Assembly (NCBI RefSeq): GCF_001025195.1
Contig: NZ_AP012325.1
Location: 1,612,001-1,676,000, forward strand
Length of the DNA: 64,000 nucleotides
Source of the DNA: Bifidobacterium catenulatum DSM 16992 = JCM 1194 = LMG 11043
GTDB lineage: Bacteria > Actinomycetota > Actinomycetes > Actinomycetales > Bifidobacteriaceae
Direction of reading: 5' to 3'
The notes under the pieces were generated by a model. The model was not told where the DNA came from, made no database searches, and was given only the letters and a program-made list of their open reading frames with translations. The translations under genes were made by a program, and so were the position numbers. Of this stretch, positions 21,140 through 57,573 are shown one piece after another. Positions within the stretch are counted from its first letter, which is position 1. Each line of letters opens with the position of its first letter.

Positions 21140-21187
21140 CAAATAGCCAGTCAGCAAGCGCCAGTCGGTAGGCAGCGAATCGCAATA

Positions 21188-21235
21188 GTCGAAGAGGGGT
21201 GTACGCGCATCCTCACGTGTACAGCTCTCTTCGAC
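21188..21235. terminator. Hairpin between convergent LRV and FHA genes
   Basis: GTCGAAGAG and CTCTTCGAC form the base of a stem of about 20 bp with two G-U pairs and one mismatch when read as plus-strand RNA. It separates two convergent genes. There is no clear T-run on either side, so the terminator call is tentative. Confidence 0.45.
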
Positions 21236-21329
21236 TCTCGGCATCGTTCATTGTCGCACCGTCATTTCAATATATTCCAAACCTTGCGGTTTGACGGCAT
21301 ACTTGGCGATACGCAACACAACATCTCAA

Positions 21330-21899: not shown

Positions 21900-22016
21900 A
21901 CCCTCATTGTAATTTGACGTTTGATTTGCGATAGTGAATTCGCTCTGCAATACAGGCAGTTTCGTAATATGCCGACTGTTGGCATAATGATCGCAACAAT
22001 AGTGTTTTTTCGTATT

Positions 22017-22056
22017 AAAAATGGGGATCAGCTGTTTGAAGCCAATCCCCATTTTT
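22017..22056 (-). terminator. rpoBC transcription terminator
   Basis: The arms AAAAATGGGGAT and ATCCCCATTTTT are perfectly complementary over 12 bp with a 16-nt loop. Read on the minus strand the stem ends in a T-run, 53 bp after the rpoC stop. This is a textbook intrinsic terminator. Confidence 0.85.
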
Positions 22057-22108
22057 ATGTCTATCGGATGATTTCAGACGTTACGTCGTTCCATCATCGC
22101 CTTTCGGA

Positions 22109-31597: not shown

Positions 31598-32263
31598 ATG
31601 ACGAACGAAGAGCATACCAATGACGCGCAAGGCGCAAATGCAGCGGAAGCCAAAGTCGAGAAAATGTTCGAATACGGCTATCGCAAGTCGAATTACGGTC
31701 CGGACGAACTCGTGACCGACGCGCACGGCAATCCGATTTCTGTAATCGACGCAATGCTGTCGGCCGAAGACGCGGCAAAAGCCGAAACTTCCACGCCCCA
31801 CCTGTGCTACTACTCCCCCCGAATTCCAGGCAACACCGGTTCGGCAATCCGCCTGTGCGCGGTGACCGGCACGATCCTGCATTTGGTGGAGCCGCTTGGA
31901 TTCAATCTGCGCGATACGAAGCTGCGCCGCGCCGGATTGGATTATCACGATATGGCGCACGTGGTATTACACCCGAATTTTGAAAACCTAGTGGAATCCA
32001 TGCCGAATTCACGCATCATCGCGTTCACTGCACACGCCACCAAACTGTATACCGACATCGAATACAAGCCGACCGACATTCTGCTATTCGGCCCGGAGCC
32101 GGGCAACATTCCCGATCCGATGGATATTATGGCCGGTCCGCACGTGGCCGAACAGGTGCGATTGCCAATGCGCCCGAGCCTGCGTTCCCTGAACCTCACC
32201 AACTGCGCATCCATCGCCATCTACGAAGCCTGGCGCCAACTAGGCTTCGCCGGCGGCCAGTAA
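31598..32263 (+). CDS. trmL: tRNA (cytidine(34)-2'-O)-methyltransferase, TrmL/YibK type
   Basis: This SPOUT-class methyltransferase uses S-adenosylmethionine to modify the wobble ribose of certain leucine tRNAs. The knotted-fold motifs are present: NTGSAIRLCAVTG, ILLFGPEPGNIP, and LRSLNLTNCASIAIYEAWRQ at the C-terminus. It has about 221 residues, with an N-terminal extension of about 60 residues before the domain that other YibK proteins do not need. A much longer frame opens at 31322 but overlaps mutY; the ATG at 31598 is the first plausible one and looks leaderless. The gene is followed by two palindromic elements. Confidence 0.9.
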   Translation: MTNEEHTNDAQGANAAEAKVEKMFEYGYRKSNYGPDELVTDAHGNPISVIDAMLSAEDAAKAETSTPHLCYYSPRIPGNTGSAIRLCAVTGTILHLVEPLGFNLRDTKLRRAGLDYHDMAHVVLHPNFENLVESMPNSRIIAFTAHATKLYTDIEYKPTDILLFGPEPGNIPDPMDIMAGPHVAEQVRLPMRPSLRSLNLTNCASIAIYEAWRQLGFAGGQ

Positions 32264-32326: not shown

Positions 32327-32328
32327 CC

Positions 32329-32420
32329 GCTGGAGAGGCGGCGGGGTCTATTCCCGACACGCTCCAGGCCGCTCAGGCCAAGTCTTTACGGTCTGAAACA
32401 GACCCCGCCGTCTCTCCAGC
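32329..32420 (+). repeat. Long-stem palindromic element, copy A
   Basis: A 21-nt arm at 32329-32349 pairs with 32400-32420, with one G-U pair and the rest Watson-Crick. The 50-nt loop contains a small GGCC-GGCC hairpin. Inner arm and loop match copy B on the opposite strand: CGACAC, AGGCCG, GGCCAAG and ACGGTCT occur in the same order. The outer arm differs from B but still pairs, so the stem has changed by compensation. It may act as an RNA or as a mobile palindrome; as a plain terminator the conserved loop would be unexplained. Confidence 0.8.
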
Positions 32421-32438
32421 TACGCTGAGTTCAACTTA

Positions 32439-32446
32439 AGTAAGTT
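32439..32446 (+). repeat. 8-bp direct repeat AGTAAGTT, right copy
   Basis: This is the partner of the copy at 32319-32326, just outside the palindromic element A. Confidence 0.4.
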
Positions 32447-32489
32447 TTCTTTTCTTTTATGCAAGACACAACGAAATGTACGAAAGCGA

Positions 32490-32576
32490 GCAGAAGAGCG
32501 GGATATTCTGTTCGAGACCGTAAGCTTGGCCGAACGGCCTTGAGTGTGTCGCGAATAGAATATCCCGCTCTTCTGC
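32490..32576 (-). repeat. Long-stem palindromic element, copy B
   Basis: A 25-nt arm at 32490-32514 pairs with 32552-32576, with one position not Watson-Crick. Read on the minus strand, the 37-nt loop is homologous to that of copy A (CGACACACTCAAGGCCG, then GGCCAAG and ACGGTCT). The two copies are thus inverted relatives 69 bp apart with different but self-complementary outer arms. Confidence 0.8.
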
Positions 32577-32675
32577 GACCTCCCCATTACAGCAGCTTAT
32601 GCACCCAACGCAAGCACAAATCGCAAGAATGAATCGCACGCGACAAGCATGCATCGGGAAGAGGGAAGGGAGGGG

Positions 32676-34040
32676 CTAGTTTTTGAAGCTGTGGATTGGG
32701 GCGGGGATGCGGCCGCCACGGGTCACGAAAGCTTCGCAGCTGGTCTGGTTCACCGGAATGATCGGCGCATAGCCCATCAGGCCGCCGAAGTTGGCCATCT
32801 CCCCTACGCCTTTGCCTTCCACCGGAATCACGCGCACGGCGGTGGTCTTCTGGTTGACCATGCCGATGGCGGCCTCATCGGCGATGATGCCGGAAATGGT
32901 GGATGCGGTGGTGTCTCCCGGAATGGCGATCATGTCGAGGCCGACGGAGCACACGCAGGTCATGGCCTCAAGCTTTTCGATCTTCAGGCAGCCATTGGTT
33001 GCCGCGTCAATCATGTTCTTATCTTCGGAGACAGGGATGAACGCGCCGGAAAGTCCGCCGACGTAGGAGGACGCCATGATGCCGCCCTTCTTCACCTGGT
33101 CGTTGAGCATGGCGAGCGCCGCGGTGGTGCCCGGTGCGCCAACCTGTTCGAGGCCAATCTTTTCAAGCACTTCGCCGACGGAGTCGCCTACGGCCGGGGT
33201 TGGCGCGAGGGAAAGGTCGATGATGCCGAATGGAATGCCGAGGCGACGGGATGCCTCCTGTGCCACCAGCTGGCCGACGCGCGTGATCTTGAACGCGGTG
33301 CGCTTGATGGTTTCGCACAGGAATTCGAAGTCTTTGCCCTTGGCTTCGTCCAGCGCGCGGGAAACCACGCCGGGGCCGGAAACGCCGACGTTGATGACCG
33401 CGTCGCCTTCGGTCACGCCATGGAAGCCGCCTGCCATGAACGGGTTGTCGTCGGGGGCATTGCAGAATGCCACGAATTTCACACATCCGTAGGAATCGTT
33501 ATCTGCGGTAGCGTGTGCGATGTCTTTGATGATGTGGCCGAGCAGCTCGACGGAGTTCATGTCGATGCCGGTTTTGGTGGATCCCACATTGACAGACGAG
33601 CAGACAATGTCGGTTTCGCTCAGCGCCTTCGGCAGGGAGCGGATGAGCAACTCTTCGGCAGGGGTCATGGACTTGGATACGAGCGCGGAGTAGCCGCCGA
33701 TCAGGTCGACGCCGACCTTCTTCGCCGCACGGTCAAGCGCATGCGCAATTTTCACGAAATCGTCCGACGTTTTGCACGAGCTTGCGCCGACCAGAGAAAT
33801 CGGGGTGACGGTGATGCGCTTATTGACGATCGGAATGCCGTAGTCGCGTTCGATGGCCTGGCCAGTGGATACGAGATCCTTGGCATACGTGGTGATCTTG
33901 TTGTAGATGTTGTCGCAGACTTCGTCGACGCTGTCGGCCGCGCAGTCCAACAGGCTGATGCCCATGGTGATGGTGCGCACGTCGAGCTTCTCCTGCTCGA
34001 TCATCTGGTTGGTCTCGTGGACCTCCATGATATTCAGCAT
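32676..34040 (-). CDS. PFL family protein (DUF711/UPF0210)
   Basis: This 454-residue cytoplasmic protein matches the DUF711/UPF0210 family. Conserved blocks include [10 protein letters not shown] near the N-terminus, [27 protein letters not shown] and [17 protein letters not shown]. The fold is related to glycyl-radical enzymes but I see no glycyl-radical motif, and no reaction is established. A small ACT-domain gene lies directly upstream on the same strand, the usual pairing for this family, so the two probably form a regulated unit. The start follows AAGGAAAAACC. Confidence 0.9.
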
Positions 34041-39291: not shown

Positions 39292-39323
39292 TTTCAGCCG
39301 GATTCCCGATAAACGAAAGCAGC

Positions 39324-39372
39324 AAAATAATGCGCCCCGCAACCAATACCCTGGTACGGGGCGCATTATTTT
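39324..39372. terminator. Bidirectional terminator between pyrD and OYE genes
   Basis: AAAATAATGCGCCCCG pairs perfectly with CGGGGCGCATTATTTT (16 bp, 17-nt loop). T-runs occur on both strands, so it can serve both convergent genes. Confidence 0.85.
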
Positions 39373-39441
39373 ATTGCGATTGCCGATACTGCCTATTTTT
39401 ATCTGATATTTATCTGACGATAATCCAATCTATCGGCTCCA

Positions 39442-45808: not shown

Positions 45809-45892
45809 GGTTCCAACATTATCCCATAATTTGCCTTATTTCCTTCATCCACCCTGAAAGCAATCCCTGAAATCTCCCTGAATATGCGTGAA

Positions 45893-45929
45893 GCCCGTCG
45901 AATCGAGCGTGAAACTCGATTCGACGGGC
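45893..45929 (-). terminator. leuB terminator
   Basis: GCCCGTCGAATCGAG and CTCGATTCGACGGGC are perfectly complementary over 15 bp with a 7-nt loop, downstream of leuB and between it and the start of the TM2 gene. Confidence 0.7.
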
Positions 45930-45981
45930 GTCTCAACAGGCAAACAGATCCGGCAAAATCATATAATCCGGATCATGACCG

Positions 45982-56139: not shown

Positions 56140-56176
56140 CATTGCCATCTGATTTGATTTCAATCAGATGGCAATG
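56140..56176 (+). terminator. Terminator of the G5/SLT gene
   Basis: CATTGCCATCTGATT and AATCAGATGGCAATG pair perfectly (15 bp, 7-nt loop) only 4 nt after the stop codon. The T-run is short. Confidence 0.7.
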
Positions 56177-56235: not shown

Positions 56236-56287
56236 ATATAGTTTGAGCCCCGTAATATTCGAAGATATTACGGGGCTCAAACTATAT
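56236..56287 (-). terminator. 23-bp perfect hairpin after the 166-residue gene
   Basis: Two 23-nt arms at 56236-56258 and 56265-56287 are exactly complementary around the 6-nt loop TCGAAG. It sits 35 bp beyond the stop of the minus-strand gene. The stem is unusually long for a simple terminator. Confidence 0.65.
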
Positions 56288-57346: not shown

Positions 57347-57391
57347 AAAGGGGTTATGGGTGAACCTTGATGATTCGCCCATAACCCCTTT
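57347..57391 (-). terminator. Hairpin downstream of the GH31 gene
   Basis: AAAGGGGTTATGGG and CCCATAACCCCTTT pair over 14 bp with a 17-nt loop; on the minus strand a TTTT run follows. It is 180 bp past the GH31 stop. Confidence 0.6.
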
Positions 57392-57427: not shown

Positions 57428-57555
57428 TATATATGGCAGATTTCGTGTCTTGACATGAGACATCTCGCTTATATATATATGGCAGATTACTGCCAGAAAA
57501 AGCCCAGCAGAGGGCATGTTTTCGCACTCTTTCGCCACTTCGTCTGCCATATATA
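57428..57555. repeat. Three copies of TATATATGGCAGA
   Basis: Direct copies of TATATATGGCAGATT lie at 57428-57442 and 57474-57488. An inverted copy of the first 13 bases is at 57543-57555, next to ATCTCGCT and its complement, so 57462-57486 and 57543-57563 form an interrupted palindrome. Confidence 0.65.
57450..57478 (+). promoter_or_regulatory. Candidate sigma-70 promoter pointing at the GH31 3' end
   Basis: TTGACA at 57450-57455 is followed after 16 or 17 nt by TATATA/ATATAT. No plus-strand gene follows; a transcript would run antisense into the end of the GH31 gene. Confidence 0.35.
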
Positions 57556-57573
57556 AGCGAGATACTCACCTAA

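Follow-up and report, generated by a model that had tools for sequence, protein, structure and literature searches.

Short palindromic repeats that lie dispersed outside genes are known from bacteria as the REP, BIME and REPIN sequences, which carry a GTAG or a CGTC tag and are found singly or as inverted pairs, some of them heterotypic (PMC3733652, PMC3116915). The element described here shares each of these habits apart from the tag, and the CGTC-tagged repeats, too, seem to be without a dedicated transposase (PMC3733652); neither "Actinobact" nor "bifid" occurs in the main text of that study. A second point of comparison is provided by Bifidobacterium breve UCC2003, in which transcription often ends at GC-rich stem-loops that are not classed as Rho-independent and are without a clear consensus (PMC5746004). 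By this description they resemble the element, being stem-loops near 3' ends, and the element is likewise mostly without a T-tail. The two differ in that the available text of the B. breve study names no conserved core or family.

Two copies of the element, A and B, lie in the window, by which we mean the whole 64-kb stretch of Bifidobacterium catenulatum DNA that was analyzed. Both are found between a gene of the SpoU rRNA methylase family, the start of which was picked by hand where a longer ORF exists, and a convergent gene of the DUF711 family, with 65 nt separating the SpoU-family gene from copy A and the DUF711 gene ending 99 nt past copy B (Table 1). The initial annotation had placed copy A at 32329-32420 on the plus strand and copy B at 32490-32576 on the minus strand, and an inverted-repeat search agrees with both placements, giving 87% complementarity between the arms of copy A (32329-32358/32391-32420) and 93% between those of copy B (32490-32518/32548-32576). 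A core common to the two copies and running in the same order had also been described and was confirmed by alignment. The further claim of one non-Watson-Crick position in each stem holds for the outer 21-25 bp and fails for the full stems, in which 22 of 24 positions (copy A) and 27 of 29 (copy B) are Watson-Crick.

Table 1. Position of the two copies, their parts, the neighboring genes and other hairpins, in window coordinates
Feature	Position	Strand	Basis
Upstream gene, SpoU rRNA methylase family	31598..32263	+	PF00588, E 5.5e-22
Copy A, whole element (A type, 39-nt core)	32328..32421	+	covariance model R1, 66.7 bits, E 2.8e-14
Copy A, 5' arm	32329..32354	+	inverted-repeat search
Copy A, conserved core CGACAC...GGTC	32355..32393	+	alignment with other copies
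GGCC/GGCC apical hairpin inside copy A core	32367-32379	+	read from sequence
Copy A, 3' arm	32394..32420	+	inverted-repeat search
Linker, copy A to copy B	32421..32489		aligned with G060 linker
Copy B, whole element (B type, 36-nt core)	32488..32578	-	covariance model R1, 95.9 bits, E 1.5e-21
Copy B, 3' arm (on - strand)	32490..32515	-	inverted-repeat search
Copy B, conserved core	32516..32551	-	alignment with other copies
Copy B, 5' arm (on - strand)	32552..32576	-	inverted-repeat search
Weak terminator-like site, 7 pairs	32635..32653	-	
Convergent downstream gene, DUF711 family	32676..34040	-	PF05167, E 1.1e-192
Core-less long hairpins in window	21187-21236, 22016-22057, 39319-39377, 45888-45934, 56140-56176, 56236-56287, 57347-57391, 57462-57563		

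The folding energies of the window hairpins lie 7.8 to 9.7 sd below those of dinucleotide shuffles in four folds, with 0 of 200 shuffles folding as well in each of the four. A covariance model (R1) built from 60 copies, copy B among them and copy A not, returned these two copies as its sole matches in the 64-kb window at E up to 1. As further copies exist elsewhere, the window hairpins are far beyond chance, and the observation of two covarying hairpins is confirmed. Eight other long hairpins (15-23 bp), all without the core, are located in gaps of the window, in five cases where the flanking genes converge; by eye, the hairpin at 21187-21236 has arms resembling those of the element family. 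Hairpins of at least 14 bp number 11 in all in the window, compared with 4 and 0 in two shuffles.

Copies A and B belong to a dispersed Bifidobacteriaceae family of long extragenic hairpins. A covariance-model search of Bifidobacterium genomes, proposed when the two copies were first noticed, revealed further copies with the conserved loop and compensating arms in many genomes: R1 matched in 71 of 112 Bifidobacterium genomes and, under strict filters, found nothing in the remaining 41, and across the family it matched in 80 of 189 genomes belonging to 4 of 16 genera. A class-wide sample of 246 genomes gave matches in one, the window's own. The core pattern by itself occurs in 51 of the 112 Bifidobacterium genomes, its reversed control in 0 of 112, and a scan of named genomes for the core found at least 120 stretches, the 80 matches listed being all from Bifidobacterium. 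Copy numbers per genome from the R1 searches of genus and family are lower bounds. The window's own genome contains 3 exact core-pattern matches, at least 6 copies by the model and 7 in a smaller, more permissive search; in that search G072 gave 68 matches, G055 52, G017 45, G068 42 and G088 38, all of these counts, the 7 included, possibly counting both strands of one copy. Among the 150 matches listed from it for 6 genomes, three genomes have at least 58, at least 34 and at least 33 copies.

Carriage of the element by phages or plasmids was rejected, as the exact core had 0 matches in viral contigs and the best 20 of 30 records in a plasmid search, all 30 from Rhizobium, reached E about 3. 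One copy (L196) is present in MT837054.1:9062-9150, in an unverified record from human faeces in Mexico that bears the label "Bacteriophage sp." and resembles a piece of bifidobacterial chromosome, with MurJ-like and thioredoxin-reductase-like proteins named from sequence.

Each copy consists of a near-invariant core of 36-39 nt on arms of ~25 bp, the sequence of which differs between copies and yet pairs. There are two main core types, B (36 nt) and A (39 nt), and the commonest core is CGACACACTCAAGGCCGTTCGGCCAAGCCTACGGTC. Across 90 copies 25 of 36 core columns are invariant, compared with mostly 0.1-0.6 bits at arm positions, the highest of which, about 1.0, adjoin the core. The loop is nearly frozen while the stem changes fast yet stays paired. 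The 60 copies behind R1, drawn from 72 non-redundant copies with a 36-nt core, align without gaps over 91 columns; 95.9% of their cells are paired, against 64.3% in shuffles, a value that leans high because the 12 copies left out (L016, L017, L041, L073, L076, L085, L089, L101, L103, L120 and two of L125) partly have weaker arms. In the same alignment double-changed cells number 598 against 155.5 in shuffles (sd 12.4), and 25 of 29 stem pairs are changed on both sides, without excess over shuffles (24.3). Independent of this selection are the core invariance in 90 copies and the pairing counts from 108 non-redundant copies with a 36-nt core, in which 2461 of 2700 arm pairs are Watson-Crick, 46 G-T, 77 A-C and 116 other, G-T thus being rarer than A-C.

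Within the core, covariation links the apical loop to either side of the internal loop, through two contacts that cross the GGCC/GGCC hairpin. Columns 34-45 are A-T in 82 copies, G-C in 22, C-G in 1 and G-T in 3 (Watson-Crick in 105 of 108), and columns 47-60 are C-G in 91 and T-A in 15, with two others (106 of 108); 0 of 10,000 shuffles, which ignore relatedness, reached either value. Some cores extend to 53-80 nt by an extra hairpin between GGCC and TACGGTC. The arms of this second hairpin (L007, L023, L028, L034, L048, L102, L130, L142 and others) differ between copies yet pair, and by eye they apparently covary.

Integron attC sites are also long imperfect hairpins in which the sequence varies and pairing is kept, with R'' and R' end boxes and an integron integrase. 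They share with the element the variable sequence, the kept pairing and the long hairpin, but they keep their outer boxes and vary inside, the opposite of what is seen here, where the element ends (arm positions of the alignment) hold no strongly conserved bases. The closer likeness is to REP sequences, in that the element is extragenic, has many copies and occurs in pairs of opposite orientation. It differs from them by its conserved core and hypervariable stem, a unit of ~90 nt with 25-bp arms, crossing loop contacts, the absence of an end tag and of a RAYT link, and its restriction, in the genomes searched, to Bifidobacteriaceae. Among 166 copies GTAG was found at the 5' end in 11, CTAC at the 3' end in 17, CGTC at the 3' end in 16 and GACG at the 5' end in 37, with GTAG or CTAC near an end in 22, and identity with a tagged REP was rejected on these counts. 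Nor is there a conserved stem sequence of the REP kind, given the low information of the arms against the invariant columns of the core.

The initial annotation had also suggested a linked Y1 transposase of the REP/RAYT type, an expectation that was not borne out: Y1 transposases occur in 7 of 112 genomes compared with 71 of 112 for the element, 66 of the 71 element-carrying genomes are without one, and six Y1 loci (about 3.4 kb each) contain no element. A linked RAYT transposase was rejected on these counts and the element-free loci. The single Y1 transposase gene of the window's genome (G000 C1:1580335-1580712, L164) has no element within the surrounding 3.4 kb. A description of such a Bifidobacterium repeat was not found among the papers listed from the open-access literature, the available text of PMC2864571 mentioning Bifidobacterium only in a reference, and the family is apparently undescribed so far.

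The placement of the copies relative to genes was investigated with gene calls from our own codon-usage script, not annotation. The 178 copies surveyed occupy 117 distinct gaps, of which 62 are tandem, 39 convergent and 1 divergent, the other 15 lying at an edge or inside a predicted gene; the element-free gaps of at least 100 nt at the same loci comprise 173 tandem, 44 convergent and 89 divergent ones. Divergent gaps are thus avoided (1 of 102 against 89 of 306; Fisher p 9e-12), and convergent gaps are enriched relative to tandem ones (p 9e-4). In tandem gaps, single sense copies sit at a median of 19 nt past the upstream stop codon (n = 21) and single antisense copies at 67-86 nt from the stop codon (n = 28; sense/antisense p 4.5e-6), the antisense orientation accounting for 28 of 49. 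Where a convergent gap holds one copy, its sense side is the nearer (medians 38 versus 101 nt, p 0.012); the permutation tests ignore relatedness between genomes. All 22 close pairs among the 150 matches listed for 6 genomes are ordered "+ then -", and adjacent copies sharing a gap in the 178-copy survey are "+-" in 15 cases, "++" in 1, "--" in 1 and "-+" in 0. Consequently, when two transcripts converge on such a pair, the copy that either of them reaches first is core-forward. Copies are also found between sufC-like and sufS-like genes, probably inside an operon (L023, L025, L029, L043, L064, L107), where they recur across several species and as many as 17 of 25 arm pairs have changed.

T-rich tails downstream of the 3' arm were seen on the core strand of 24 of 166 copies, compared with 2 of 166 for the opposite strand and 180 of 2031 controls; with so few tails, a classical intrinsic (Rho-independent) terminator was rejected for most copies. 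Neither window copy was called terminator-like in a scan allowing loops of 3-8 only. A weak terminator-like site separates copy B from the stop codon of the DUF711 gene (Table 1), and the scanned stretch of the window yielded 1 such site where 1.3 are expected by chance. An intrinsic terminator is present at 11 of 85 genes that have a sense copy, at 15 of 59 whose copies are all antisense and at 89 of 399 that have no copy, which amounts to a slight scarcity beside sense copies.

Comparison of 48 orthologous pairs, excluding rows with L026 (one-base shift), revealed differences at 727 of 2496 arm sites, 549 of 3502 sites in adjacent intergenic DNA and 111 of 2017 core sites; with each copy used once (25 rows) the values are 347 of 1300, 287 of 1917 and 66 of 1160, respectively, the core divergence in both sets being biased toward low values, since the core was what the copies were searched by. 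A separate comparison yielded values close to these. The arms therefore diverge faster than neighboring DNA while staying paired. At flank identities of at least 95% changed arm pairs comprise 7 single and 9 double changes, 8 of the 9 doubles coming from L090 and L128; at 90-95% there are 48 single and 29 double, at 85-90% 29 and 108, and below 85% 22 and 150. Double changes thus arise early and later dominate over single ones, but close relatives often differ by single changes, so the data fall short of proving that both sides change at once.

Individual loci, read by eye, show the core to be absent, decayed or inverted in place within related arms. At the uppS locus (named from sequence) the core is forward in L102 and L130 and inverted in L142 between nearly identical arms, and this was the one pair returned by a systematic search for orthologues with an inverted core. 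In the gap of L155, another copy of the window's genome, a hairpin is present at the same place in 14 of 14 genomes, its own included, with an intact core in five of them (two arm versions), a short loop only in five, decayed cores in G051 and G069, a truncated core in G001 and an inverted core in G027. The gap of L156 is similar, with five genomes matching only weakly there and no such hairpin in G001 and G069. In the window gap the A-B pair is common to G019, G037, G040 and G045, and in G060 the entire unit of A, linker and B is inverted (alignment score 262 in reverse, 114 forward). G019, which is assigned to the species of the window, is identical over 340-343 nt next to the element to a locus of B. 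catenulatum subsp. kashiwanohense (L082). The linker of the window aligned to that of G060 scores 5 in reverse, where the best of 300 shuffles reached -3, and -19 forward, where the best reached 9. An ordinary short terminator-like hairpin takes the place of the pair in G001, G027 and G051, and other sequence with its own hairpins is found in G030, G041 and G055.

Simultaneous compensatory changes and fully inverted loops have been interpreted as footprints of template switching (PMC8794818), and inverted loops and double changes like those of template-switch hairpins (PMC8794818, PMC8604942) also occur in the element. Unlike the element, template switching is a mutational mechanism and no family, and PMC8794818, in its available text, concerns RNA genes including rRNA. 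Given the inverted loops, the early double changes and G-T pairs rarer than A-C, template switching during replication could keep the arms paired without selection on RNA. Of the original claim that diverged but complementary arms indicate selection on structure, the structured, covarying element with its conserved loop was upheld; arm complementarity alone does not serve as proof of such selection.

From this distribution and structure we infer a function with some reserve. Position, pair order, the hugging of stop codons and the T-rich tail on the core strand favor a bidirectional 3'-end hairpin, and copies A and B may well constitute a REP/BIME-like pair that terminates transcripts or stabilizes their 3' ends, with a core read by a putative factor; this is our tentative preference. 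On transcription of the upstream gene, the core-forward hairpin would form immediately downstream of the stop codon in the nascent RNA, where it would end or protect the transcript, aided by the putative factor reading the knotted core. As the hairpin would act core-forward at a transcript end, two convergent copies would serve two converging transcripts. The arms would need to pair but be free in sequence; template switching between them during replication probably restores their match and occasionally turns the loop around or removes it, and this would account for stems that are hypervariable but paired. The crossing contacts, the avoidance of divergent gaps and the replacement of the pair by terminator-like hairpins in G001, G027 and G051 also speak for the 3'-end hairpin. 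The points that count against it are the rarity of T-rich tails, the only slight scarcity of terminators, the antisense orientation of most single tandem copies, the weak terminator-like site near copy B and the 41 genomes of the genus without a match. The arms' lack of preference for G-T further makes it less likely that selection acts mainly on RNA pairing, and no partner protein for the element was found.

Next in rank, and somewhat doubtful, is mobile DNA of the REP, REPIN or MITE type, a unit that would spread as DNA through an enzyme supplied elsewhere and settle at the least harmful spots, gene 3' ends, with the core as the enzyme's recognition structure. Dispersal, with the copy numbers listed above for three genomes, is in keeping with such mobility, as are the extragenic placement with avoidance of divergent gaps, the heterotypic inverted pairs, as in BIMEs, and the remnants, judged by eye, that are degenerate or retain arms alone. 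Some copies within one genome are related, given that the most similar two of 25 G072 arms differ at 4 of 26 positions and others at 5 to 7; however, no two of the 25 are identical, and matches between the linkers of different G072 pairs are at most 15 nt long. Mobility is further opposed by the scarcity of Y1 transposases, three loci at which neither a target-site duplication nor a clean empty site was seen, the other hairpins that relatives mostly carry at the same spot and the viral contigs without an exact core. The 30 largest protein clusters near copies include, by eye, no mobile gene, on which ground a mobile gene beside the copies was rejected.

An improbable account is a DNA-level signal, an extruded hairpin or cruciform whose core would be bound by a DNA-binding protein in chromosome organization, replication or uptake. 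Its orientation would matter little, since both strands of a cruciform present the core, and the absence of a G-T preference together with the tolerated in-place inversions is compatible with a DNA-level role; the occurrence in 4 genera agrees with it. Such a signal fits poorly with sense copies that hug stop codons, a strand-biased T-tail, the strict order in the pairs seen and the Bifidobacterium genomes without a match.

Very improbable is a structured small RNA, riboswitch or ribozyme family, for which the conserved apex with its crossing contacts and the apparently covarying extra hairpin of the long-loop variants could be cited. The initial annotation knew of no named family, and rightly so: the whole window has 0 Rfam matches at the gathering score, and three loci gave 5 weak, unrelated matches below it (E up to 1), for which reason the element was rejected as an Rfam RNA. 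Its occurrence in both orientations relative to genes, its site after stop codons and arms without a G-T preference argue against it as well. Least probable of all are neutral hairpins, native gene-end palindromes carrying the core as an accidental passenger and covarying through template switching alone, which would accommodate the inverted loops, the double changes among near orthologues and the core-less hairpins at the same spots in relatives but would leave the near-invariant core in many species, its crossing contacts and the orientation rules unexplained.

It is unlikely, though conceivable, that Bifidobacteriaceae have an undescribed factor-dependent system for 3' ends with the core as its address, in which a protein would read the knotted loop in nascent RNA or extruded DNA and end transcripts on both strands, the stem being a free-running, self-correcting palindrome in which the signal can invert in place. 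If so, the terminator would be coded in the loop and not in stem plus T-tail. The element has a REP/BIME-like habit and a different architecture, and it is probably a REP-like signal of gene ends with the construction reversed. It is the usual palindromic repeat turned inside out, with a frozen loop and a drifting stem. The family thereby offers many natural replicates for hairpin rebuilding and loop inversion, processes usually inferred case by case, and it cautions against taking strong covariation with Watson-Crick replacement as a sure sign of selection on RNA. A core that did signal gene ends would help to explain the many bifidobacterial transcript ends without classical terminators and would point to a putative new factor in a widely used probiotic group.
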